Below, in pieces: positions 24,820 to 37,729 of a DNA stretch of 64,000 nt. Under the pieces are notes generated by a model. It saw nothing but the letters and a program-made list of their open reading frames with translations. It ran no database searches and was not told the DNA's origin. Source of the stretch: Alteromonadaceae bacterium (GTDB taxonomy: Bacteria > Pseudomonadota > Gammaproteobacteria > Enterobacterales > Alteromonadaceae); NCBI GenBank assembly GCA_014872785.1, contig WKFJ01000045.1, forward strand, positions 62,001 to 126,000. The letters run 5' to 3'. A program made the position numbers and the translations under genes. How positions within the stretch are numbered: position 1 is the first letter of the stretch; each line of letters begins with the position of its first letter.

Positions 24820-25971
24820 TCAGATACCGAGCGCTTGTTTGAGCGCCATATTTTTTAACGTACCCGCCTTATCGGCTAAGGCTAAGCCAATGTTACGTAA
24901 CGCTTTCAAAGGTAAATGCTGATTGCTAAAACCAGCATAAAAGCCATCCATCACACTCATCATTTTGAGATTTTGAAACTTGCGTGCCGCTTCGTAGTCT
25001 TTAAGTACCGACGAGACGTTACTCTCCGTTAGTTTGCCCAAAGCATTTAACAAGGCTGAAACGTCCTGAAAGCCTAAATTGACTCCTTGTCCGGCCAAAG
25101 GATTGATAATGTGTGCGGCATCACCCACCAACACCACTCTGTCTTTAACATATTGGTGCGCATGGAGTCTTTTTAAAGGGAATGAGGCTGTTTTTAATAT
25201 CGTAAATTGTGCTGACAACGCGGGAAAAGATGCGCAAATTTCGGCTTCAAGTTCATTATCTGACAAACTTTTTAATAGGTTTACTTGTTCCGGTGCACAG
25301 TACCAGACCAACGATGCGTATTGACCGTATAACGGCAGAAAAGCGCGAGGACCAGTTTCAAAGAATTGCTGCCATGTATGATTGCCACTATCGCATTCAA
25401 GTTTGATATTAATTGCAAAAACCTGCTGTTGATATTGCCAGCCCGATATGGGGAACTGCATTTGTTGTCTGAGCGGCGAGTTACCGCCATCTGCCGCAAC
25501 AATCACCTTGGCTTGCGAAACTTTACCATCGAGTTCAACTTCACCAGATTTAGCATCTATTAAACTACCCGATGCAAACATCGAAACACAGTCATGCTCA
25601 TCTAACGACATTAATGCAGCCTGTTGCAAATGCACATTTTCCATCAAATGTCCCAAGTGACTCAGTTGCAATTCAGACGCCATAAATTGGGTTTTAAACT
25701 CCGGAAGCTCCCATACAGAGAGCGTGTCATAGACTTTTAATCGGAGCTTTTGCAACCCCGACCAAATCCCTAACTCTCGCAATAGGTTTTCCGAGCCAAG
25801 GCTTATTGCTGATACGCGAAGATCGGGGGCTGGTGTTGTTATATCAAATTGAGGGATATGCGGCTCGACTATCGCGATATTCTTGCCTTGTCGAGCTAAT
25901 CCCTTTGCTAACGTAGCGCCCACCATACCGCCGCCGAAAATGACAGCATCGAAAGTATATTGACTCGTCAC
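24820..25971 (-). CDS. ubiF: 2-octaprenyl-3-methyl-6-methoxy-1,4-benzoquinol hydroxylase (UbiF; UbiH/COQ6 FAD monooxygenase family)
   Basis: 383 residues. FAD-dependent ring hydroxylase of ubiquinone biosynthesis. The dinucleotide-binding motif is GGGMVGATLA near the N-terminus and the second FAD motif is VGDAAHIINPLAGQGVNLG (about 280-298). The C-terminal MDGFYAGFSNQHLPLKALRN and the DLRVSAIS and SLVWY segments match UbiF more than UbiH or UbiI as I remember them. The start is a GTG at 25971 with AGGAAG upstream. The next gene downstream encodes the 58-residue membrane protein. Confidence 0.86.
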   Translation of the reverse strand: MTSQYTFDAVIFGGGMVGATLAKGLARQGKNIAIVEPHIPQFDITTPAPDLRVSAISLGSENLLRELGIWSGLQKLRLKVYDTLSVWELPEFKTQFMASELQLSHLGHLMENVHLQQAALMSLDEHDCVSMFASGSLIDAKSGEVELDGKVSQAKVIVAADGGNSPLRQQMQFPISGWQYQQQVFAINIKLECDSGNHTWQQFFETGPRAFLPLYGQYASLVWYCAPEQVNLLKSLSDNELEAEICASFPALSAQFTILKTASFPLKRLHAHQYVKDRVVLVGDAAHIINPLAGQGVNLGFQDVSALLNALGKLTESNVSSVLKDYEAARKFQNLKMMSVMDGFYAGFSNQHLPLKALRNIGLALADKAGTLKNMALKQALGI

Positions 25972-26191: not shown

Positions 26192-27436
26192 CTACTCTCC
26201 AATCGCAAGTTCAAGTTGCGCTCTTGCAATTGAAAAAGCGCCTCTCGCTTGTAGCAAGTCATTTCTGGTACTGGTTAGCAGGTCTTGCGCATCTAGGACA
26301 TCATTCGCAGTACTGAGTTGTTCTTTGTAACGTATCTCTGTGACTCGAAAATTCTCCTCAGCCTGAGCCATTGATTGCTGCAACACTGCGTAATTTTGTC
26401 GTGCTTCTTGTAGTGCCAGCCAAGCAACATGCGTTTCTTGTTGTACTAGTTCTTTAACTCGAGATTCATTCTTTAGTGCAATTTGTACATCGTGATGCGC
26501 GGCTTTATTACGACTGACATTGGCCATGGTATCCCATAACGTCCAGCTCATATTAATACTCAGTTGTGTATTACGGCTATTGTCAGAAAATTCGAAGTCA
26601 TCGGACAGATTGTTCTGCGTAATTTGCGCGGTAACAGTTGGCCAATAAGTGGCATTGGCACTGGATTTATCTTTTTTTGCAATCTTGACTGAAAGACTTT
26701 GTTGTTTGAGATCCGGACGACGTTGCACAGCACTTAACAAACTATCCTCAAGCCCCATGTTCCAATCTAGGTCAACAGGCTCAGCTTCTGCTGTTACGCT
26801 TGTAAGAATGTTTTGATTTAGTAATACGTTTAAGCTTGTTTGGCTTCTTTGAACCGCATTTTGAGCAATGAGCAGACTTTGTTCGCCTCTAGCAACTCGC
26901 ACATCCGCTTGCAATAAGTCATTGCGCCAAATACTGCCATTCGCATATAAATGCTGAGCATTCTTGCGGTGTTGTTGCAAACGCTTAAGTGATTCCCTCG
27001 CCTCCTGCGCCAGCGCAATATCCGTTAAAAATTGATACCACACTTGTTTTACCGAAAAAGTAAGCGTTTGTTTTTGCCTCAAAAAGCTCAATTCCGCGAT
27101 AGCGAGTTGCAATTCAGCCTTCTTCCAACCATTAAAAACTGAAGGGTCGTATAAGGTTTGATTTACCTGTAATCGTGCTTGGTAGCCTGTATCATTTTCT
27201 GCGCCTTGGTTGTTACTCAGCTGTTCGTTTCTAGCTCCACTAAGCGACAAGGTTGGGTATAATCTTGAATAGGCGATATGCTCGGTGTGTTTAGCCTTTT
27301 GTATTTGCTCGAGACTAATTTGGTATTCCAAATTGGCGTTAAACGCCTTCTCGAGCGCTTGCTCTAACGTTATAGCACTGGCACTTGCGCAGCAAGCCAA
27401 TGCGAAACACAGTATGTAGAGTCGCTTTAAAACCAA
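26192..27436 (-). CDS. TolC-family outer-membrane channel protein
   Basis: 414 residues. A signal peptide (LYILCFALACCASASA) is followed by ITLEQALEKAFNANLEYQ, the usual start of outer-membrane efflux proteins, and two internally similar helical halves with WTLWDTMANVSRNKA and PDLKQQSLSVKIAKKD segments. It would form the trimeric outer-membrane exit duct. It begins at a TTG that overlaps the end of the HlyD-like gene by 10 bases, so the two are translationally coupled. Last gene of the predicted export operon that starts at 32322. No pump gene accompanies it, which is unusual for a TolC homologue inside an operon. Confidence 0.88.
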   Translation of the reverse strand: MVLKRLYILCFALACCASASAITLEQALEKAFNANLEYQISLEQIQKAKHTEHIAYSRLYPTLSLSGARNEQLSNNQGAENDTGYQARLQVNQTLYDPSVFNGWKKAELQLAIAELSFLRQKQTLTFSVKQVWYQFLTDIALAQEARESLKRLQQHRKNAQHLYANGSIWRNDLLQADVRVARGEQSLLIAQNAVQRSQTSLNVLLNQNILTSVTAEAEPVDLDWNMGLEDSLLSAVQRRPDLKQQSLSVKIAKKDKSSANATYWPTVTAQITQNNLSDDFEFSDNSRNTQLSINMSWTLWDTMANVSRNKAAHHDVQIALKNESRVKELVQQETHVAWLALQEARQNYAVLQQSMAQAEENFRVTEIRYKEQLSTANDVLDAQDLLTSTRNDLLQARGAFSIARAQLELAIGE

Positions 27437-28221
27437 GGTTCTAGCTCCACGTATCTTCCGGAGATCAGGACTGAGCTAGTTGTTGTTACTTCCCACACTA
27501 CGCGTCTCAGTCCACTTGAAGGCTGTAACAATGGAAATAACCTTTTCACCGTTGCAGTACCTATTTTATTTCCTTGAAAATTGACAGATGTGGTTTGCCC
27601 GAGACTCAAAGTGTCAGTTAATCCGGGCGGAATATCTATCGACATGACCAAAGATTCCAGACTCGCAAATTCTATAATTGGATCCCCTTGCTTCGTCCAT
27701 TCCCCTCGTTTGAGCTTGGTATCCGCAACCACACCTTCAAAAGGGGCATAAAGAATAGCGTCTTCAACGGCAAGCTTAGCAATATGATATTTTGACTCAC
27801 TCACTTCCAAATTGGCTGAGGCCGTTTGCACACTAAACTCCGCTTCGGTTAACGCAATATCTGAAAGAATATTTTCATTTACTAAGCGACGGCTTTTCTC
27901 TAGGCCGTGTTTAGCTGCAGCAAGTTCGGCTTTTGCCGCTTGCAGCAAGGCTCTGGCCTGGTGATATTGCGCGCTGAGCTGTGCTGGATTTATCTCTGCT
28001 AACTTTTCGCCTTGTTTTACGATACTGCCGCTCGGTGCGATAAAACGTAGAACGCCATTTTGATTCATAGACAAATTTACCTGCTCAGCAGGTACTACAA
28101 CACCACGCAAATGCACGTTGCTCGCGTTGTCAGCATGCACATTACTTACCGTAGTAAAATAGGCTGTAAGTACAAACCATAGACAATATAAAATAGGGCT
28201 GCTTTTTCGTTTTAAAGCCAT
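27427..28221 (-). CDS. HlyD/RND-type periplasmic adaptor protein (short)
   Basis: 264 residues. A signal peptide (about 1-30) precedes a barrel-sandwich/lipoyl half (GVLRFIAPSGSIVKQGEKLAEI), a helical hairpin of about 60 residues (HQARALLQAAKAELAAAKHGLEKSRRL region), the second lipoyl half (DAILYAPFEGVVADTKLKRGEWTKQGDPI) and a partial beta-barrel. Such adaptors bridge inner-membrane components to TolC. It is shorter than typical RND adaptors. The ATG overlaps the end of the M50 gene by 10 bases and the stop overlaps the tolC-type gene. I infer that it links the M50/HlyD protein to the TolC homologue. Confidence 0.87.
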   Translation of the reverse strand: MALKRKSSPILYCLWFVLTAYFTTVSNVHADNASNVHLRGVVVPAEQVNLSMNQNGVLRFIAPSGSIVKQGEKLAEINPAQLSAQYHQARALLQAAKAELAAAKHGLEKSRRLVNENILSDIALTEAEFSVQTASANLEVSESKYHIAKLAVEDAILYAPFEGVVADTKLKRGEWTKQGDPIIEFASLESLVMSIDIPPGLTDTLSLGQTTSVNFQGNKIGTATVKRLFPLLQPSSGLRRVVWEVTTTSSVLISGRYVELEPWF

Positions 28222-30287
28222 AAATCCGCTCTGAAGAATTTTCTAAGTTTGAAAGTTAAGTGTTGCCATAAAGGCAAAGTCTCACCGTAAAGTTTAGCCT
28301 CTCCACCCAAACCGACGGGTAAATAAGGATCATCTTGCCAACCTTTTAATAACAAGCGTACTAATACTTTCTGCTCCACACCAGAGGACATGGCAATTGC
28401 AGATTTACTTATTACCTCGGCATCATACACGTTACTCATGCCGGCGTTTAACCTAACCAGTGCATTATCACCGACACTCAAATAAGCAACATCTCGTTGA
28501 TCAACAATGGCGTCAAAAAATCGCTCTTGTTCAGAAATTAAGGTGAGAACCTCTTGCTGTTCAGAAAAAAAGCGCCCTTTTAACAAATCTGGAGGTAAAC
28601 CATCCACTGACCAAAACCCTTCGGGCAGCGTCAACTTTAACAAGGCGGCTTTGGCCAGCGCATTATCAAGTTGTTCTTTTATTAAATTTAACTCAATGGA
28701 GGTGCGCGCCACTTCAGCAGATTCATCTTCCAAAATAGCAGATACCTTTCTGCCTTCAAGGGCTTGTTGGCTCGCTTGCAAATCACTGATTTGCATTATT
28801 AATTCAGGAGAATGCATTTGTAGAAAAACACTATTGACCGAATCAACGGAAATTTTCCTATCAGTGTCGTATGCTACCGACTCCACGAAGGCATTTGCAG
28901 GGGAATACAACACATGACTTGTTGACTCAACCGTTCCCTCAGCCACTAACGTCAGTTTGGGCTGCCAAAATACCATTACAGCCGTTGCGAACAATGAAAT
29001 AACGCCGGTTCTTATTTTTGTAGCCTTAGTAGACCACAAACGAGTTTTAAACCAATTTAACAAGGTACTAATCCAATTTCCGGTAATGCTTCTCACAAAA
29101 ATAAATACGACATATAAGAAGCCTATAATCGCCAAAAACCCAAATTGGGCATACACAAATTGATAGCCCAACCATCCAATAAAAGAAAGGAACAAGGTCA
29201 TATAAACCGCAACTGCGGTTCCGTAAATCCAATAAACGCGCTTTTCTCTTTCACTGGGTTCAAAAGGCTTTTCATCTTCGGCTCCAAATAACTTAGTTTT
29301 TAAGTTCCATGAAAACCACGCGAGCGAATTTTGTCGTAGGTTCTGCATTTCTAACCAATCAGTGAGAATGTAATATCCATCAAACTTCAATAGCGGGTTT
29401 AAGTTCACCAATAATGAACTGGCCGTGCCAATGGTCATTAACACAAATGCGATATAACCAACGGGATTGTGCACATCCACCGCTAACCACACCAGGGTAG
29501 CGAGCGCCGCAACGAGCAACTCGACCCAAACGCCCGCCAACGCCACCTGGATCTTGTGATTTTTGTTTTCAAACAGCCATGCATCATTCACGTTACAATA
29601 TAAACAAGGCTGAAAGGCAAGCAGAAGGAACCCCATCTCATGTACGTCACCGCCATAATACTTGCAGGTCAAGCCATGGCCGCACTCATGCAGCGCAATC
29701 GCGACCAGCGCAATAATCCAAATATAAATGACGCCACTCAATTGCGTTTGTAAATATACTTGCGTGAAGTCTTGTGCGAAACGCTGTCCATTCCAGGCAA
29801 TCAAAAAGAATGCGAATAAAATGAACATCGTCTGGAATTTAATAGCTCGTGGCGACCACACAAAACGAATACTGTCGATGATGTGATCAAACCACTTATT
29901 AGGGTCAACAAGTTTAAAACGCATCATTAGCACACTGCCTTTCGCCTGTATCAGTGATTTTTTGCGCTCTTCGCGGATTCGTTCGAGCAGAGCAACGTTT
30001 TCTTCCTGCTTGGTTCGTTGTAATACTTGATAATCTCTGCAAGCATTGAATACTGCTTGTGCAGCATCAACATCATATTCATATTCGTCGGAAGTCTCGT
30101 TAAATTTATTGACGATAGCGGTGAGGTCATGGATACCATCGAACAGCCGGATCAGTTGATACTGAGGTACGGTGAACCGGTAATACTCCTGTTTATCAGG
30201 TTCTTTGAGTACATAGCTGACTTGGCCTTGTTGCACTAATTTACGGACTTTTACATCTTCTCTTAAAGGTGCCGGAGCGCTACTCAT
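28212..30287 (-). CDS. PqqD-like/M50 metalloprotease/HlyD-like membrane fusion protein
   Basis: 691 residues. Residues 1-95 resemble a PqqD-type winged-helix domain (YYRFTVPQYQLIRLFDG), the kind that binds peptide leaders in RiPP systems. A charged helix follows, then a membrane region with the zinc motif HECGH at 200-204 and the partner motif NPLLKFDG at 297-304, both diagnostic of site-2-type M50 proteases and apparently intact. More helices follow to about residue 430. The last 250 residues look like an HlyD adaptor (lipoyl-like halves around a coiled coil, EGTVESTSHVLYSPANAFVE). RBS is AGGAGTATCT. It probably recognises, cuts and/or hands over a substrate; that function is inference. Confidence 0.85.
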   Translation of the reverse strand: MSSAPAPLREDVKVRKLVQQGQVSYVLKEPDKQEYYRFTVPQYQLIRLFDGIHDLTAIVNKFNETSDEYEYDVDAAQAVFNACRDYQVLQRTKQEENVALLERIREERKKSLIQAKGSVLMMRFKLVDPNKWFDHIIDSIRFVWSPRAIKFQTMFILFAFFLIAWNGQRFAQDFTQVYLQTQLSGVIYIWIIALVAIALHECGHGLTCKYYGGDVHEMGFLLLAFQPCLYCNVNDAWLFENKNHKIQVALAGVWVELLVAALATLVWLAVDVHNPVGYIAFVLMTIGTASSLLVNLNPLLKFDGYYILTDWLEMQNLRQNSLAWFSWNLKTKLFGAEDEKPFEPSEREKRVYWIYGTAVAVYMTLFLSFIGWLGYQFVYAQFGFLAIIGFLYVVFIFVRSITGNWISTLLNWFKTRLWSTKATKIRTGVISLFATAVMVFWQPKLTLVAEGTVESTSHVLYSPANAFVESVAYDTDRKISVDSVNSVFLQMHSPELIMQISDLQASQQALEGRKVSAILEDESAEVARTSIELNLIKEQLDNALAKAALLKLTLPEGFWSVDGLPPDLLKGRFFSEQQEVLTLISEQERFFDAIVDQRDVAYLSVGDNALVRLNAGMSNVYDAEVISKSAIAMSSGVEQKVLVRLLLKGWQDDPYLPVGLGGEAKLYGETLPLWQHLTFKLRKFFRADLWL

Positions 30288-30333
30288 AGATACTCCTCAT
30301 CATCAATATGAAGAGCAAGAAGGTCGGCCATTA

Positions 30334-32322
30334 CTACAGTCCCAAAGTAAAAATAAAAAAGTTTCTAATACGTCGCCATTGCCTTTGTACGATGGATGTT
30401 TCTGGCGTGTACACCAAAGCTTGCCCAGTCATGCCTGGCAAGACTGGGTAGTCAGAGCTCGTTATCAATACTTCCGCAATAAATCCCGTTTGTAATTCAG
30501 AGGTGTCTACCTCTTCTTCGGCTTCTAGAATTGTGGTTGGAACCTCGTAAGAACGTCCAATATGCAGCACCTCTCCGTAAACATAGGCACCGGGTCTGGC
30601 ACGTAAAACCGCTCTTACTTCTTGTCCGACTTTGACATCTAATACATCCTCTTCGGCAACGTGCACTACTAGGCGAAACTTATCTGGGTCTGCGACACGA
30701 AAAATTTCAGAACCAGTACTGAAACTGCGTCCCGTTAATTCACGTAAATTGGTATTCAATACCACCCCAGCGAGCGGCGCTAGAATATTGGCATTATTTA
30801 GGTCTTGTTGGATTTTGCTTACGCGGGCAAGCGAGGATTCCCTTTCGATCATTGCGTTTGAGAGCGCAAATGAGTCTTTCTCTGATCGCGCTTCAACAAT
30901 CTTGCGCTCGGCAATGGCCATTTGGGCTTCAGCCTCGGCCAGTTGAAGAGACAATGCGCTGGTATCCATTCTTGCAACCAGTTCTCCTTGCTGTACTGTT
31001 TGGCCTTCATTCACTAGGACTTCACTGATGCGACCGTCAACAGGGGTAAAAACGCCCTGGCCTAATTGAGTTTCAACTGTAGTTGGCGCTGAAACCCATC
31101 GTAAAACCGGTAGAAAATGCAGTGCGAGCACCAAGGCCACAACCGCACTGCTAATTAACCCAGCTCGTTTACCGCGTTTTCGCCACCACTTTTGTGTGGA
31201 TTCCTGCAGTCCTTTTAAAGAAGCACGGTTGGTAATACTTTTAAATAAGCTAGCGTTCCTAAGTGCCACTGTGGCTTGTGAAGCCATGATATGCAGTAAA
31301 TCAGCTTTGCCGGCATCTGCAAAACCTGCACTATCACTTTCAAACCAAATAACGCCTAACACCCCTTCTTCGTCTTTTAATGCCACGCTCCATAGCGCGT
31401 TAACATTGTGTTCGGTGACGTATTTAGTCCATTCATTTTGTTTCCCCCGTTGGGAAGCAATGTAACGACCGCGTTCCGCGATGTATACCGAGCGCTGAAT
31501 GTTTTGTACTTGCGACATTAGCTCAAGAATTGCTCGCTGCTTGGTATTTTTACTATCAAGTGCTTGTCCACCAGAAAGCACCGTCAATGCTAATTCGCTG
31601 TCATCGTCGTCAAGCAAAGCAATTGCACCAAAGCTAGTTTCAACTAATTCGTTGGTTCGATTGACCACCAGATTTAACACTTGATCAATGTCTAGCGTCG
31701 ACACAACTTCGTTTGAAATTGTCATTAACGCATTCATTTCTTTAACTTTGCTTTCCATTTCCATCAGGCGCGCATTTTTCATAGAAATCGCAGCACTAAT
31801 GGCCAAATCTTTCACTAGCTCACAGTCACTGGTGTCAAATTGACCTCCAACCCCGTGACGCTTATTGACGATTTGAATGGCGCCATAAGATTCCTCGTCA
31901 ATTATCAAAGGAACACATATCATCGATTTAGTTGCGAATCCGGTTTTTTGGTCAACAGTTTGGGAAAACTCTTTGCTCTTAGCCGTATCGAGAATAATTT
32001 TAGTGCGCTGCGTTTCTATGACTGCGCCAACAATGCCAACACCAAAATCAAGCTTCATGCCTATGACATTGCGCTTTACCGGGCCTTCCGCTAGCTGACA
32101 TACATTTTTTTGTAATTTGTCATCTTTTACCCACAATGATCCTGCTTCAGCATCGAGCGCATTCAAAATGCGATCAAACACCAATTGCATTAGGTTTTTT
32201 ACATCGTATGCCTCGCCAATAAATTCCTGGGTAAGCTTTCGGGAGGTCGTGAGGATTTTAACTTTGCGTTTAAGATCCAAAACTTCTTTGCTGGGTGCAG
32301 TGGAACCAGGTCTATTTACCAT
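30334..32322 (-). CDS. GAF-GAF-TM-HlyD fusion protein (sensor-linked periplasmic adaptor)
   Basis: 662 residues. Two cytoplasmic GAF domains are visible: about 35-180 (LDAEAGSLWVKDD, MICVPLIIDEESYGAIQIVNK) and about 210-365 (TSFGAIALLDDDD, ALWSVALKDEEGVLGVIWFE). A single transmembrane helix lies at about 388-408. The periplasmic part is HlyD-like: lipoyl half (GVFTPVDGRISEVLVNEG), coiled coil, second half (ILAPLAGVVLNTNL) and beta-barrel up to PGMTGQALVYTP. A fusion of small-molecule sensor domains to an efflux adaptor is unusual and suggests that export is gated by a cytoplasmic signal. It lies 46 bases upstream of the M50 gene and is the first gene after the terminator at 32391. Confidence 0.86.
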   Translation of the reverse strand: MVNRPGSTAPSKEVLDLKRKVKILTTSRKLTQEFIGEAYDVKNLMQLVFDRILNALDAEAGSLWVKDDKLQKNVCQLAEGPVKRNVIGMKLDFGVGIVGAVIETQRTKIILDTAKSKEFSQTVDQKTGFATKSMICVPLIIDEESYGAIQIVNKRHGVGGQFDTSDCELVKDLAISAAISMKNARLMEMESKVKEMNALMTISNEVVSTLDIDQVLNLVVNRTNELVETSFGAIALLDDDDSELALTVLSGGQALDSKNTKQRAILELMSQVQNIQRSVYIAERGRYIASQRGKQNEWTKYVTEHNVNALWSVALKDEEGVLGVIWFESDSAGFADAGKADLLHIMASQATVALRNASLFKSITNRASLKGLQESTQKWWRKRGKRAGLISSAVVALVLALHFLPVLRWVSAPTTVETQLGQGVFTPVDGRISEVLVNEGQTVQQGELVARMDTSALSLQLAEAEAQMAIAERKIVEARSEKDSFALSNAMIERESSLARVSKIQQDLNNANILAPLAGVVLNTNLRELTGRSFSTGSEIFRVADPDKFRLVVHVAEEDVLDVKVGQEVRAVLRARPGAYVYGEVLHIGRSYEVPTTILEAEEEVDTSELQTGFIAEVLITSSDYPVLPGMTGQALVYTPETSIVQRQWRRIRNFFIFTLGL

Positions 32323-32390
32323 AAGAATTGACCTTGCCTCCGTGATGCAGGTCTAATAAGTAAGTATCTAAAAGTAAAGCTAAAAATAAA

Positions 32391-32430
32391 CAAACCAGCA
32401 AGTCTAAATGGACTTACTGGCTTGTTTTTT
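32391..32430 (-). terminator. Terminator between the basic-peptide gene and the export genes
   Basis: Near-perfect 14-bp stem (CAAACCAGCAAGTC against GACTTACTGGCTTG) with T-rich tracts on both sides. On the minus strand it would end most transcripts carrying the repeat-protein and peptide genes before the GAF-HlyD gene, so the export genes would be expressed at a lower level or from their own promoter near 32323-32390. Confidence 0.88.
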
Positions 32431-32438
32431 TAGTAGTG

Positions 32439-32564
32439 TTAGTTTGATTTCGCTCTAGCCTTTGCGGTTTGTGCACGCGCTGCTAGTTTGAAACCTTTTA
32501 CTTTTGCGCCAGCTACAGCGGCTTCTGCTTTTTGCTTAATTTTATCTGCTTTTGTAATAGCCAT
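32439..32564 (-). CDS. 41-residue Lys/Ala-rich basic peptide
   Basis: Reads MAITKADKIKQKAEAAVAGA, then KVKGFKLAARAQTAKARAKS and a final N before TAA. It has nine Lys, two Arg and only two acidic residues, and thirteen Ala, so it is a strongly basic, probably amphipathic helical peptide without Cys. A strong ribosome-binding site GGAGAGACGATA precedes the ATG. It lies 59 bases after the repeat-protein gene and directly before the terminator at 32391, so it is a real translated gene by context. I know no family for it. Possible roles are a second export substrate, a partner that neutralises the very acidic repeat protein, or a leader-like peptide for the PqqD/M50 protein; none is proven. Confidence 0.78.
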   Translation of the reverse strand: MAITKADKIKQKAEAAVAGAKVKGFKLAARAQTAKARAKSN

Positions 32565-32613
32565 TATCGTCTCTCCGATTAATAAAAATTAAATAAGTAC
32601 AATCTGTTTATTA

Positions 32614-32635
32614 GGAGCTCCAGTTAAGGAGCTCC
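32614..32635 (-). promoter_or_regulatory. Hairpin spanning the stop codon of the repeat-protein gene
   Basis: Two copies of the palindrome GGAGCTCC separated by six bases can pair across the TAA stop codon. The downstream tail is AT-rich but lacks a solid T tract. It could set mRNA stability or partly end transcription, which would alter the ratio of repeat protein to basic peptide. Confidence 0.45.
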
Positions 32636-35600
32636 GTCCATATCAGGCATTTCATCTAAGTCCAGTACCAAGGTTACTGTGCCATCACCATTGTCAATAA
32701 CTTCAGCAATTGGCCAGCATTGTATGATGTAGTTACCATCTTCATCTGGGCCTATCGCTTCAGGTGGAATGCCACCTTCCCATTCACCGATCATATCGCC
32801 TGAAATAATGAAAGTTGAGTTCTCTAGGTCAACATCCGCCATATCAATTGGCAGTGTCCAACTGGTCGGACCGTCTGAATCGTAGTCTAGTCCCCACTCC
32901 GCAGGGTCAGAACCACCCTCGAACAGAGGCAAGATGAATTCGTTGACATAACCGTTTGGATCAGGTGGAGGTGTGCCATAACTACCAGCATCGCCCTCAC
33001 CGTCATCAAAGCCGTCAGGCATATCAGGCCCAACCGTGCCGTCTTCTGGCATTATTGGATCGTCTCCCGCAGCCCACTCTTCAACCGTACCATCAGGATA
33101 AGTTACAGAACCAGAGCCGTCGGGGTTAATGCTATATACCGTGCCATCGGGCTCCGTATGGGTGCCAGATCCATCAGCCCCCCAACTACCATAACTACCA
33201 TCGGCATTAGTATAACTGCCTGACCCATCAGCGTTATAAGTACCAGAGCTACCGTCTGCAGACGACCAACTGCCCGAACCATCAGCGCTAAATGTCCATG
33301 TATTGCCTTGACCGTCATCATAGGTACCGTTGCCTTCACCATCCCAGGTTTCCACTGCACCGTCTGCGTAGGTTATTGAACCAGAGCCATCAGCGTTCCA
33401 AGTTTCTACAGTGCCATCAGCATAGGTTATGGTGCCTGAACCATCTTCATTGAATTGTTCATCTACGATTTCACCGCTGTGGTCATCAGGATAACCGTCG
33501 CCAGGTTCACTGCCGTCACCACCGTGGTACGTGCCATCGGCACCCCAGGTTTCTGTAGTGCCATCAGGATAAGTAATAGATCCGGAACCATCTGCATTTT
33601 GTTGGTAAACCGTGCCATCGGCGTCGGTATGCGTATAAGAACCATCCGCACCGTATGAACCATGGCTACCATCAGAGTTGGTGTAACCGCCTGAACCGTC
33701 GGCATTGTGGTAACCACTGCTACCGTCTGAGCTTGTCCAGCTACCAGAGCCATCAGCATTCCAAGAGTAGCTGTTACCTTGGCCATCATCCCAAGTGCCG
33801 CCACCTTGACCGCCCCAAGTTTCGCTTGAACCATCAGGGAAAACAACCGAACCAGAACCGTCTGGATTAAGGGTTTCTACAGTGCCATCGGTGTAGGTGT
33901 TGGTAACGGTGCCATCATCAGCGGTTTGCTGGTCGGCAATTTCACCCCAAGTGCCATGGGTATCATCACCATCACCGCCATCACCAGGATCGCTGGTGTA
34001 ATTACCACTTGAATCCCACGTTTCAGTAGAACCGTCAGGATAGGTTACAGAGCCGGAACCATCGGCATTAAAGTTGTAAGTGGTTCCATCTGCTTCAGTG
34101 TGACTACCGGAACCGTCTGAATTCCAATAGCCATAGCTGCCATCGCCATTAGTGTAGCTGCCAGAGCCATCGGCGTTATAAGTGCCTGAGCTGCCGTCTG
34201 AACTGGTCCAACTGCCTGAACCATCGGCATTCCAAGTGGAAGTATTGCCCTGGCCGTCGTCCCAAGAGCCGCCACCTTGGCCATCCCAGGTTTCGGTCGA
34301 ACCATCAGGGTAGACTCGTGAGCCAGAACCATCTTCATTCCATGTTTCTACCGTGCCATCTGGGTGAGTTGTGGTGCCAGATGTAGGCTGTTCTTCGCCT
34401 GGGTCAGAGCCTGGATCACTACCAGAGTCACCTTCACCAGACGGCTCACCAACTGGGTTACCGGATGAATCCCATTCTTCAACGGTTCCATCAGGGTAAG
34501 TGACTGAGCCGGAACCATCGGGATTCTGCTGATAAGTTGTACCATCTGCCTCAGTATGACTGTACGAACCATCTGCGTTGTATGTGCCGTGACTACCGTC
34601 AGCATTCGAGTAGCCGCCAGAACCATCGGCATTGTGGTAACCACTGCTACCGTCTGAGCTTGTCCAGCTACCAGAACCGTCGGCATTCCATGTAGAAGAG
34701 TTGCCTTGCCCATCGTCCCAACTACCACCGCCTTGACCGTCCCAAGTTTCACTTGAACCGTCTGCGTAATTCACAGAGCCCGAGCCATCAGCATTCCATG
34801 TGTAGGCTGTGCCATCAGCTTCGGTATGAGTACCGGAACCGTCAGCATGGTATTCACCGTGGCTGCCGTCGGCATTTGTGTACCCACCTGAGCCATCTGC
34901 ATTGTAATAACCACTGCTACCATCTGAACTTGCCCAGCTGCCGGAACCATCAGCATTCCATGTTGACGTATTGCCTTGGCCGTCATCCCAGCTGCCACCA
35001 CCCTGTCCATCCCAGGTTTCGGATGAGCCATCGGGCCAGGTTCTGGAGCCAGAACCGTCTTCATTCCAAGTTTCAGTCGAACCATCAGGATGAGTTGTTG
35101 TACCTGAAGTTGGGTCTTCCGCGCCCGGATCATGCCCTGGATCGCCGCCTGGGTCTGTTCCCGGATCAGAGCCCGGATCACTACCGGGATCGCCGCCTAC
35201 TGGATTGCCTTCGGCATCCCAGGCTTCCGTCGTTCCATCTGGATAAGTGATAGAACCAGATCCGTCTGGATTACCTTGATATGTCGTTCCGTCAGCCTCT
35301 GTGTGAGAGTAAGATCCATCAGCACCATATGTGCCATGGCTACCATCTGCATTATTGTAACCACCTGATCCGTCGGCATTGTGATAGCCGCTGCTACCGT
35401 CCGCACTTGTCCAGCTACCAGAACCATCAGCACTCCATGTGGCAGTATTGCCTTGACCATCATCCCAAGTTCCACCACCTTGTCCATCCCAGGTCTCACT
35501 ACCTCCATCCGGGTACACTATTGAGCCTGAACCATCGGGATTGTGGGTTTCTACTGTGCCATCAGGATGCGTTGTGGTATTCGAGCCGTCTCCACCATCA

Positions 35601-35824
35601 CCTGTATCGTCAGGAGGTGAATCCCCGGGTGAATGTTCACCGGTGGGAGGTTGGTCACCACCATCTGGAGGAGTAACTGTATCATCGGTAGTGGATACTC
35701 CTGCGTCACCACTTACACCTAAATCACCGACTAAGCCACCTATACCGCCTGGGGCTATTCGGTCTTCAAGTTTTTCGATATTCGAATCAACTTTTTTCTT
35801 GCTAGAGCCTTTTTCATCAGCCAT
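32624..35824 (-). CDS. Large acidic Asp-Gly-Ser repeat protein with N-terminal LEDRIAP motif
   Basis: 1066 residues, no Sec signal or membrane helix. The N-terminus is Lys-rich (KGSSKKK) followed by IEKLEDRIAPGGIGG at residues 16-30; related LEPR/LEDR motifs mark the N-termini of some large surface or exported proteins, and the Gly pairs after it resemble a processing site. Residues 84-920 are six long repeats of about 120-150 residues, each containing W/Y-DDGQGN and a run of nonapeptides of type xADGSxxxx, with Asp/Gly/Pro/Ser linkers. The last 146 residues are a non-repeat domain with the only Cys. The protein is extremely acidic. RBS is AGGAGCAAGTAAG. I infer an exported fibre or matrix protein handled by the adjacent M50/HlyD/TolC genes. 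Function unknown. Confidence 0.85.
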   Translation of the reverse strand: MADEKGSSKKKVDSNIEKLEDRIAPGGIGGLVGDLGVSGDAGVSTTDDTVTPPDGGDQPPTGEHSPGDSPPDDTGDGGDGSNTTTHPDGTVETHNPDGSGSIVYPDGGSETWDGQGGGTWDDGQGNTATWSADGSGSWTSADGSSGYHNADGSGGYNNADGSHGTYGADGSYSHTEADGTTYQGNPDGSGSITYPDGTTEAWDAEGNPVGGDPGSDPGSDPGTDPGGDPGHDPGAEDPTSGTTTHPDGSTETWNEDGSGSRTWPDGSSETWDGQGGGSWDDGQGNTSTWNADGSGSWASSDGSSGYYNADGSGGYTNADGSHGEYHADGSGTHTEADGTAYTWNADGSGSVNYADGSSETWDGQGGGSWDDGQGNSSTWNADGSGSWTSSDGSSGYHNADGSGGYSNADGSHGTYNADGSYSHTEADGTTYQQNPDGSGSVTYPDGTVEEWDSSGNPVGEPSGEGDSGSDPGSDPGEEQPTSGTTTHPDGTVETWNEDGSGSRVYPDGSTETWDGQGGGSWDDGQGNTSTWNADGSGSWTSSDGSSGTYNADGSGSYTNGDGSYGYWNSDGSGSHTEADGTTYNFNADGSGSVTYPDGSTETWDSSGNYTSDPGDGGDGDDTHGTWGEIADQQTADDGTVTNTYTDGTVETLNPDGSGSVVFPDGSSETWGGQGGGTWDDGQGNSYSWNADGSGSWTSSDGSSGYHNADGSGGYTNSDGSHGSYGADGSYTHTDADGTVYQQNADGSGSITYPDGTTETWGADGTYHGGDGSEPGDGYPDDHSGEIVDEQFNEDGSGTITYADGTVETWNADGSGSITYADGAVETWDGEGNGTYDDGQGNTWTFSADGSGSWSSADGSSGTYNADGSGSYTNADGSYGSWGADGSGTHTEPDGTVYSINPDGSGSVTYPDGTVEEWAAGDDPIMPEDGTVGPDMPDGFDDGEGDAGSYGTPPPDPNGYVNEFILPLFEGGSDPAEWGLDYDSDGPTSWTLPIDMADVDLENSTFIISGDMIGEWEGGIPPEAIGPDEDGNYIIQCWPIAEVIDNGDGTVTLVLDLDEMPDMDGAP
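33065..35575. repeat. Six-unit tandem coding repeat in the acidic repeat protein
   Basis: Roughly 2.5 kb with a basic 27-base (nine-codon) period nested inside blocks of about 360-470 bases. Each block carries one WDDGQGN or YDDGQGN codon set (six in all). The low-complexity code produces long open frames on other frames and on the plus strand that are not genes. The similarity between blocks makes the region prone to recombination and to assembly collapse. Confidence 0.9.
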
Positions 35825-36298: not shown

Positions 36299-37729
36299 AT
36301 GAGTAAGAAGCTGTACATTAAAACTTGGGGTTGCCAAATGAATGAGTATGACTCCGAAAAAATGGCGGATTTGCTTGACAGTACTCATGGATATACTGCT
36401 GCTGAAGATGCGGAGTCGGCAGACGTAATATTGCTCAATACTTGCTCCATTCGCGAAAAAGCCCAAGAGAAAGTATTTCATCAGTTAGGACGTTGGAAAA
36501 ACCTCAAAAAAACCAATCCAGAACTTATCATTGGTGTAGGTGGATGCGTTGCTTCACAGGAAGGTGATGCTATAAGACAGCGTGCTCCTTTTGTAGATAT
36601 CGTATTTGGTCCGCAAACACTCCACCGCTTACCAGAAATGATCAATCAGGTGAAAGGTGACGCAGAATCGGTTGTCGATATTAGCTTCCCAGAAATAGAA
36701 AAGTTTGACCGCCTGCCCGAACCTCGTTCTGACGGGCCAACAGCTTTCGTGTCTATCATGGAGGGATGTTCTAAGTACTGCAGTTTCTGCGTTGTTCCCT
36801 ATACTCGCGGAGAGGAAGTCTCTAGACCGGTTGATGATGTTATTTACGAAATTGCACAGTTGGCCGAACAAGGTGTGCGCGAAGTCAATCTTTTAGGACA
36901 AAACGTAAACGCGTTTCGCGGCGAGCATCACGATGGTTCTATCTGTCGTTTCTCGGAGTTATTGCATCTTGTTGCTGCAATTGATGGCATCGACCGCATC
37001 AGATACACAACATCTCACCCGGTTGAATTCACTGACGATATCATTGATGCTTATACGACGATCCCAGAACTCGTTGATCATTTACATCTTCCTGTTCAAA
37101 GTGGCTCAGACATGGTGTTAACCATGATGAAACGCGGGCACACTGCGCTCGAATACAAGTCAAAGATCCGCAAGCTCAAAAAGGTACGTCCAAATTTGAG
37201 CATGTCCTCTGATTTCATTATTGGTTTCCCAGGAGAAACTGACGCAGATTTTGAAGCAACGATGAATCTTATCAAAGATGTAGATTTCGATTTGAGTTTC
37301 AGCTTTATCTACAGTGCTCGTCCAGGGACTCCAGCTGCTGACGCAGTTGACGATGTGGGTGAAGATGTTAAAAAGCAAAGATTGCAAATATTACAACAAC
37401 GAATCAACCAGCAAGCTCAGCGCATTGCCCGTGACATGGTAGGCACAACACAGCGCGTCTTAGTCGAAGGTCCATCAAAGAAAAACATCATGGAATTATC
37501 GGGTAGAACCGAAAACAATCGTGTTGTTAATTTCGAAGGTAACCCTGAAATGATTGGGAAATTCGTCGACATAGATATCACTGATGTATTTGCTAATTCT
37601 CTACGCGGAAACGTTATTCGTACAGAAGCAGAAATGGATCTTCGCGTTGCCACTGCACCTGGCGAAATCCTAAGCAGCAAACCAGATGTTACACCTGACG
37701 AAATCGGCGTAGCACAGTTTCGCCCCTAA
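36299..37729 (+). CDS. miaB: tRNA-2-methylthio-N6-dimethylallyladenosine synthase
   Basis: 476 residues. Radical SAM methylthiotransferase that modifies A37 of tRNAs reading UNN codons. The N-terminal UPF0004 domain has the three cluster Cys residues ([25 protein letters not shown]). The radical SAM motif is [17 protein letters not shown] at about 155, and a TRAM domain follows near residue 380. First gene of the conserved miaB-ybeZ-ybeY-corC-lnt order; the next start lies 26 bases downstream. Confidence 0.97.

Follow-up and report, generated by a model that had tools for sequence, protein, structure and literature searches.

The window analysed here is a stretch of 64,000 nucleotides from an Alteromonadaceae bacterium (G000:C60:62001-126000 in our numbering; the source genome comprises 4.66 Mb in 66 contigs), in which six minus-strand genes at positions 26192-35824 encode, in order of transcription, an LEDR repeat protein, a basic peptide of 41 residues, a GAF-HlyD adaptor, a PqqD-like/M50/HlyD protein (hereafter M50-HlyD), a short HlyD adaptor and a TolC-like protein. 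We consider it fairly likely that this cassette belongs, as one branch, to a widespread module exporting surface proteins that are made in the cytoplasm, bear an LExR tag at the N-terminus and lack an ordinary Sec signal. Such a module would recognise the tag and probably cleave it, both export and cleavage being putative functions. What has been observed is the order and conservation of the genes, the co-occurrence of the tag with M50-HlyD, the folds and catalytic residues of this protein, the way in which tag subtypes follow its tree, and operons without a pump. Export of the repeat protein had already been proposed in a preliminary description of this DNA, made from its letters alone, and is still the best current reading, but its scope was too small for a module that is widespread: the LEDRIAP protein keeps its place as a putative cargo, and yet it is only a small and divergent one, the module lying elsewhere beside very large proteins of the LEPR-XLL/DUF4347 type.

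The association between tag and machinery, which the preliminary description had expected to hold for LEDR/LEPR proteins and the M50 gene, was strongly borne out in a sample of 349 genomes from the phylum of the window (taken as Pseudomonadota). Full-length M50-HlyD, counted at a best E below 1e-100 so that G386 (4.5e-52) and G437 (6.9e-35) are negative, occurs in 87 of them and the LEPR-XLL family NF012209 in 40; three candidates were scored per genome here, and nine in the planctomycete sample mentioned below, and some positives may be missed. NF012209 is present in 39 of the 87 genomes with M50-HlyD versus one of the 262 others (Fisher 3.5e-26), and at the level of genera all 23 with the tag fall within the 45 with M50-HlyD, out of 185 (p 3e-17). 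Moreover, 20 of the 48 M50-positive genomes without NF012209 were opened, and every one of them showed, within at most 40 kb read around the M50 gene, a large open reading frame (ORF) with a variant of the tag. These ORFs have 1033-5149 residues as seen and carry LExR-hh-[FL]-[DS]-[GA] or a near variant of it within the first 110 residues; the motif recurs in one of 714 later 110-residue segments of 35 large ORFs and in none of 444 ORFs of 300-999 residues. As it was written down after examples had been viewed, the procedure is biased towards it, which affects the comparison of first with later segments less. In Planctomycetota, 28 of 119 genomes are M50-positive and include all seven with NF012209 (p 2e-5), while a profile of 22 tags finds nine genomes, seven of them M50-positive (p 5e-4). 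PF07595, tried as another probe for co-occurrence across the phylum, was rejected as too narrow, with 3 of the 119 planctomycete genomes.

Tag subtype also follows the phylogeny of the protease-adaptor protein. When the subtypes IAPGG, SAD, D[GA]A and LLA, which stand for what follows LExR in the neighbouring cargo and were assigned by hand, are mapped on a quickly built tree of 68 M50-HlyD proteins, they need three changes over 22 rows, the least possible for four states, where each of 500 shuffles needed eight or more; two rows classed as 'other' and one as 'IAPA' are omitted from this set. With all 25 labelled rows six changes are required (shuffled mean 14.3, minimum 11, none of the 500 shuffles as low), and a three-state test without the window clade gave two changes over 18 rows, against a shuffled minimum of five. 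The place of the window clade in the tree is unsure because its stem measures 2.03 changes per site and the search was a quick one, with SH-aLRT as the only support value. This agreement of tag and tree fits direct recognition of the tag.

The M50-HlyD protein itself (691 residues; 28212-30287) is poorly captured by family models. Its Pfam scores stay below the cut-offs for M50 (18.7 bits) and HlyD_3 (18.0 bits), among NCBIfam models the daptide metalloprotease NF041824 fits best (E 2.9e-55; 187.9 bits, below the cut-off of 300), the epipeptide protease model NF058609 is likewise matched below its curated cut-off (E 3.6e-16), and neither library gave a PqqD match for the window protein. A profile of 49 relatives does match PqqD (3g2b, E 2e-4, profile positions 13-102), as well as a site-2 protease (3b4r, E 0.0016) and a MacA-MexA chimera (4dk1, E 3e-20). 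An AlphaFold model computed with 49 sequences (mean pLDDT 87.6, pTM 0.68) begins with three strands and three helices (residues 13-85) and continues with helices in the membrane; past residue 440 come strands and a helical hairpin. The first of these parts has the three strands followed by three helices by which an RRE fold is known, and VIA matched residues 3-91 to a lasso-peptide RRE with its leader (6jx3, Z 10.8, 84 residues aligned, root-mean-square deviation 3.3) and to a second one of this kind, 5v1v (Z 10.0). In the same comparison, residues 121-376 matched site-2 protease 3b4r (Z 9.7, 161 aligned, deviation 4.0), residues 130-315 matched SpoIVFB:pro-sigmaK (8vjl, Z 9.6) and residues 444-670 matched MacA (9qgy_G, Z 14.3). 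VIA itself cautions that values of Z below about 13 may reflect a common arrangement for helical folds, so that the 3b4r match falls in an unsure range; unrelated long-helix matches at Z 8.5-10.5 stand in the same list, and the second look by VIA barely tests the parts outside residues 421-678. Foldseek with the whole model returned adaptors only among the 50 matches listed.

Since the helical matches may be of this common kind, the assignment as a protease rests on motifs as well. Residues H200, E201, H204, N295, P298 and D303 are invariant in two alignments (A1, 20 rows; A2, 49 rows) and supply both the HExxH motif (residues 200-204; 29676-29690) and the second motif with proline and aspartate ([NS]PxxxxD) that characterise site-2 and M50 proteases, in agreement with the earlier view of an intact M50 domain; homologues have five to seven predicted transmembrane helices. 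The PqqD-like domain suggested at the same time (residues 1-91; 30015-30287) is now backed by the RRE-type fold of the model and by the match of the relatives' profile. In the model this N-terminus folds like leader-binding RRE domains, which makes the binding of a leader a putative function. The HlyD/MacA-like domain closes the protein (residues 444-670; 28278-28958).

The putative cargo is the LEDR repeat protein of 1066 residues (32624-35824), 63% of which are glycine, aspartate, serine, threonine and asparagine; its pI is 4.05 and all five lysines lie within the first 18 residues. The repeats belong to the Tcp10_C/G-box family (11 stretches, Pfam E 1.7e-68), and an NCBIfam MiiA motif is reached with 24.1 bits at a cut-off of 24. 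Its tag, IEKLEDRIAPGG, spans residues 16-27 (35744-35779) and is kept in relatives: the form KLEDRIAPGGIGGLVGDLG is identical in four related loci of the family (L041, L042, L044, L045), the contig of a fifth (L043) being without the cargo start, and L, E and R are invariant across 22 aligned tags. Aligned with the 21 others, the IEKLEDRIAP of the window has the N-terminal [LIV]ExLExR-x-x-P/L pattern. No Sec-like hydrophobic stretch was seen by eye in the cargo N-termini of the window and of the opened loci, as had been claimed for the repeat protein. NF012209 has no match in the window cargo or in its genome, PF07595 has none in the window protein or in G000, G197, G198, G208 and G248, Pfam and NCBIfam gave no RTX or type I signal family on the window cargo, and PHROGs returned nothing at 0.01 for the cargo or the basic peptide. 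C-terminal type I signals are often undetectable. A reading of APGGIGG as a double-glycine (C39) leader was judged by eye only and set aside. Where the window tag has its Gly pairs, the 20 variant tags carry FDGA, FDAA or FSAT, not GG.

The remaining machinery is made of adaptors and an outer-membrane factor. The GAF-GAF-HlyD protein (662 residues; 30334-32322) has two GAF stretches and an HlyD domain over the Pfam/NCBIfam cut-offs, and its homologues have one predicted transmembrane helix. The short HlyD adaptor (264 residues; 27427-28221) scores 122.9 bits with RND_mfp (cut-off 94.9), and the TolC-like factor (414 residues; 26192-27436) exceeds the Pfam cut-off for OEP (E 4.1e-56) and remains below that of type_I_sec_TolC (E 2.6e-44; 151.9 bits, cut-off 225); the start of each of these two proteins, hydrophobic in the case of the short HlyD, is read by eye as a putative signal peptide. 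A second, paralogous cassette of G248 (L048:13648-15972) has its short HlyD joined to SPOR domains (three PF05036 stretches), a fusion that might anchor the adaptor to peptidoglycan. The basic peptide (32439-32564; pI 10.8) has counterparts in the same slot of five other cassettes, of 42-64 residues as called and with pI 11.2-11.6, two of them in L043 (G221).

As the preliminary description had it, the six genes lie on one strand, and the last three overlap by exactly 10 bases at both junctions (28212-28221 and 27427-27436). The set is flanked by an FAD-monooxygenase gene (24820-25971) and a MiaB-like gene (36299-37729), and the ORFs of the window list no pump from the one to the other. A hairpin of 17 pairs followed by a T-rich tail (32388-32427, minus strand), terminator-like by pattern match only, separates the genes for cargo and basic peptide from those for the machinery. 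Terminator-like matches as a class are about as frequent as in shuffles (11 versus 9.9) and promoter-like ones less so (11 versus 16.9), and on that account this longest hairpin alone was considered; lying between the basic peptide and GAF-HlyD, it may allow cargo and peptide to be made in excess over the machinery.

Full-length homologues of the GAF-HlyD protein were found in five more genomes among 147 searched in the family, with identities of 75% (G197) and 74% (G198) in the same genus, and of 53% (G221), 51% (G248) and 51% (G208). All five loci keep the order LEDR protein, GAF-HlyD, M50-HlyD, short HlyD, TolC, and their cargo homologues include one cut by a contig that starts inside the gene (G221) and one split by a frame change. 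Given these five homologous cassettes in other genomes, the cassette exceeds what chance would produce, and since it has other neighbours in G208 and G248 the gene set seems to move as a unit. The frame-split cargo gene belongs to G198 (L042:3619-9163), where two further ORFs, by eye possibly an insertion sequence, lie between peptide and GAF-HlyD, so that this copy may be damaged. Downstream of the cargo gene, two loci (L044:12015-12363 and L045:11890-12153) carry tandem ORFs of 40-43 residues that repeat its last residues (WQYNPDGSGSVTYADGTTEQW or close), and look as if the end of the gene had been duplicated several times.

Relatives extend well beyond the family. At the level of the order, an M50 match is found in 18 of 197 genomes, that of the window included, four of which have only a short M50 in open frames of 391-433 residues. 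The 14 loci with a long M50 (L050-L063) all have an adaptor of the GAF-HlyD type beside it, and 12 have an ORF of more than 1000 residues; cargo starts in these relatives read LEPRLLYSAD, LEPRILLSAD, LESRILLDGA and LEARMLFDGA. The cargos of L048 and L050 score above the cut-off of NF012209, and those of L050, L056 and L058 above that of PF14252 (DUF4347). A scan of named genomes gave at least 80 loci, of which, among the matches listed, 44 are titled Planctomycetota, eight Verrucomicrobiota or its classes, and the rest are mainly proteobacteria and a nitrospirote. A tagged ORF accompanies the M50 core in, for example, Halomonas cupida, Marinobacter sp. F4216, Zoogloea oleivorans, Alteromonas lipolytica and Chthoniobacter. 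On a Chthoniobacter contig (L099:6572-10044) two neighbouring large ORFs beside the trio of M50 and adaptor genes have the tag LEPRIAPA, close to the LEDRIAPG of the window. M50 proteins without HlyD were met in other gene contexts (L064:10136-11269 and L065:9561-10805), possibly peptide-maturation clusters. Same-strand runs around the M50 gene were tallied for 113 of 120 loci, the ORF picker having failed to call the M50 ORF in the other seven. Of these 113 runs, 89 include a GAF-HlyD-type adaptor, 78 a short HlyD, 31 TolC and 28 an ORF that matches LExR loosely; many contigs end within the region.

No ABC (ATP-binding cassette), RND (resistance-nodulation-division) or MFS (major facilitator superfamily) gene is found among the six, and the operon is pumpless, as the preliminary description had concluded. 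A pump recurring in homologous loci had been named there as evidence to the contrary, and across the 113 same-strand runs a single ABC gene was met, in G420, where the neighbour concerned is Znu-like. This count identified ABC genes by motif; a further motif match fell within a cargo ORF (G140), and to the eye the remaining multi-span neighbours looked unrelated. Since ABC exporters exist elsewhere in the genome, the lack of an encoded ABC transporter speaks for the operon only.

The tag has a history of its own, a point to be added to the preliminary description. According to PMC8567305, an N-terminal export signal on very large surface proteins of planctomycetes was proposed in 2004 (Studholme et al.), with the patterns RRLxxExLExRxLLA in R. 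baltica and LxLExLExRxxP in T. immobilis; the latter is present in 52 T. immobilis genes, including 8 of the 10 longest proteins, and 20 of the products were detected by mass spectrometry, 8 of these only in the fraction soluble in sodium dodecyl sulfate. The window tag shares with this signal the core [ILV]ExLExR followed by P or LL and the N-terminal position on very large proteins of surface type; IEKLEDRIAP fits the LExLExRxxP part, that is, the T. immobilis form from its second L, with I for L. The planctomycete signal differs in being known as a motif, and PF07595 misses the window protein. The open full-text literature searched, outside which lie preprints and most subscription journals, names no machinery for the planctomycete tag, and the cassette gene set is not described in the accessible portions of PMC8567305, PMC10952558, PMC1569441, PMC10868602, PMC8277102, PMC12288469 and PMC2754498.

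Comparison with other known systems gives partial likenesses. LEPR-XLL (NF012209) and DUF4347 (PF14252) proteins are the cargo of related cassettes, whereas the window cargo has no NF012209 match and consists of G-box repeats, not of cadherin or VCBS domains. A membrane fusion protein and a TolC-type factor are shared with type I secretion (HlyB-HlyD-TolC), from which the window system differs in having no ABC transporter in the operon, a tag at the N-terminus, and an RRE and an M50 domain fused to an adaptor. The M50 core is held in common with the daptide and epipeptide metalloproteases (NF041824, NF058609), but the window protein stays below both cut-offs, is fused to HlyD and has a 1066-residue putative cargo instead of a peptide. 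PCAT/C39 exporters, that is, peptidase-containing ABC exporters, combine recognition of a leader, cleavage and export in one complex. The same logic would apply to the window system, where the peptidase is of the M50 type and not C39, and where the operon encodes no ATPase.

A mechanism can be proposed on these grounds. The RRE/PqqD-like domain of M50-HlyD would bind the tag in the cytoplasm, and the site-2-type protease would cut at or just after it, near small residues such as APGG, FDGA or SAD. The HlyD part of M50-HlyD, the GAF-HlyD protein and the short HlyD would then line a periplasmic passage ending in TolC, and the acidic repeat protein would fold outside the cell. Energy could come from the proton motive force, from folding outside, or from an ATPase encoded elsewhere. 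A speculative role for the basic peptide, in the window branch, would be to offset the strong acidity of the cargo ahead of its export.

Several observations weigh against this proposal. G468 has an LEPR protein without a full M50-HlyD, in a fragmented genome (86% complete) where the 11.3-kb contig with the LEPR ORF breaks off before this ORF does; one of the three PF07595 genomes is M50-negative (G643, below cut-off); and the 22-tag profile has two M50-negative positives and one positive, G579, that was the centre of the sample and supplied tags. Simple inheritance of whole cassettes would also make the trees of tag and M50 agree, GAF is undetected in some adaptor homologues, and planctomycete loci seldom have TolC or tagged ORFs beside the trio. 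A Vibrio LEPR-XLL protein has C-terminal RTX domains, according to PMC10868602, which suit the classical type I route.

The main rival holds that an unlinked or shared ABC exporter energises the route, the cassette being a type I system in which M50 only processes the tag, and we regard it as unlikely. With TIGR03375 as the type I probe (TIGR01842 was rejected because it matched 14 of 14 control genomes), an ABC exporter match at E of 1e-80 or lower is present in 22 of 22 M50-positive genomes and likewise in 12 of 14 controls, none of the latter over the cut-off, and an LssB-type transporter is over its cut-off in 11 of the 22; the genome of the window is below the LssB cut-off, and encodes on another contig (L169:8286-11743) a 740-residue NHLM/HlyB-like ABC exporter, best matched by the NHLM bacteriocin type (530.7 bits, below cut-off), whose ORF overlaps an HlyD ORF of its own. 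The VCBS/cadherin-type cargo of related loci also resembles type I adhesins. Nevertheless, with 32 candidates scored per genome, the other 11 of the 22 have no LssB-type transporter over the cut-off, and in G292 and G469, which carry the cassette, the best ABC matches cover positions 274-690 and 192-690 with only 293 and 311 bits, less than the PrtD-type transporter of G248 scores (363 bits). The near absence of ABC genes from the same-strand runs points the same way, as does the tag at the N-terminus, type I signals being typically C-terminal.

A different role for the same genes, that M50 and the adaptors process, retain or monitor tagged proteins leaving by another route, with GAF and M50 forming a signalling or quality-control relay, appears improbable to us. 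M50 proteases are often regulatory and GAF domains sensory, SpoIVFB:pro-sigmaK is among the fold matches and TolC is in the minority of same-strand runs, but the window family, like many of the 20 loci that were opened, encodes adaptors, TolC and cargo together, and the cargo N-termini have the look of proteins without a Sec signal. It is very improbable that M50-HlyD instead matures a peptide akin to ribosomally synthesized and post-translationally modified peptides (RiPPs), for instance the 41-residue basic peptide, as in daptide and epipeptide systems, with the large protein incidental: the daptide protease is indeed the NCBIfam model that it matches best, its N-terminus has an RRE fold and the window family conserves its basic peptides, yet the partner that co-occurs widely is the tagged large protein, none of the six genes encodes a radical SAM or other RiPP enzyme, and both RiPP protease models score the window protein below their cut-offs.

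Tag-directed export through the adaptors thus being preferred, a bolder and more tentative proposal, which we hold to be possible but somewhat doubtful, is that of a new secretion class, in which an LExR tag is read by an RRE-protease-adaptor fusion and very large proteins are exported via adaptors and TolC without a dedicated ATPase, the same core serving the planctomycete LExLExR proteins. If true, it would break the rule that an ABC, RND or MFS pump serves conduits made of adaptors and TolC. The cassette of the window, with its 1066-residue cargo, is small enough to be transferred into a laboratory strain and tested. The tie between the tag and one small gene set across phyla puts forward concrete candidates for a receptor, a protease and a conduit, and these would, if the proposal is right, be the machinery behind a tag proposed as an export signal in 2004.

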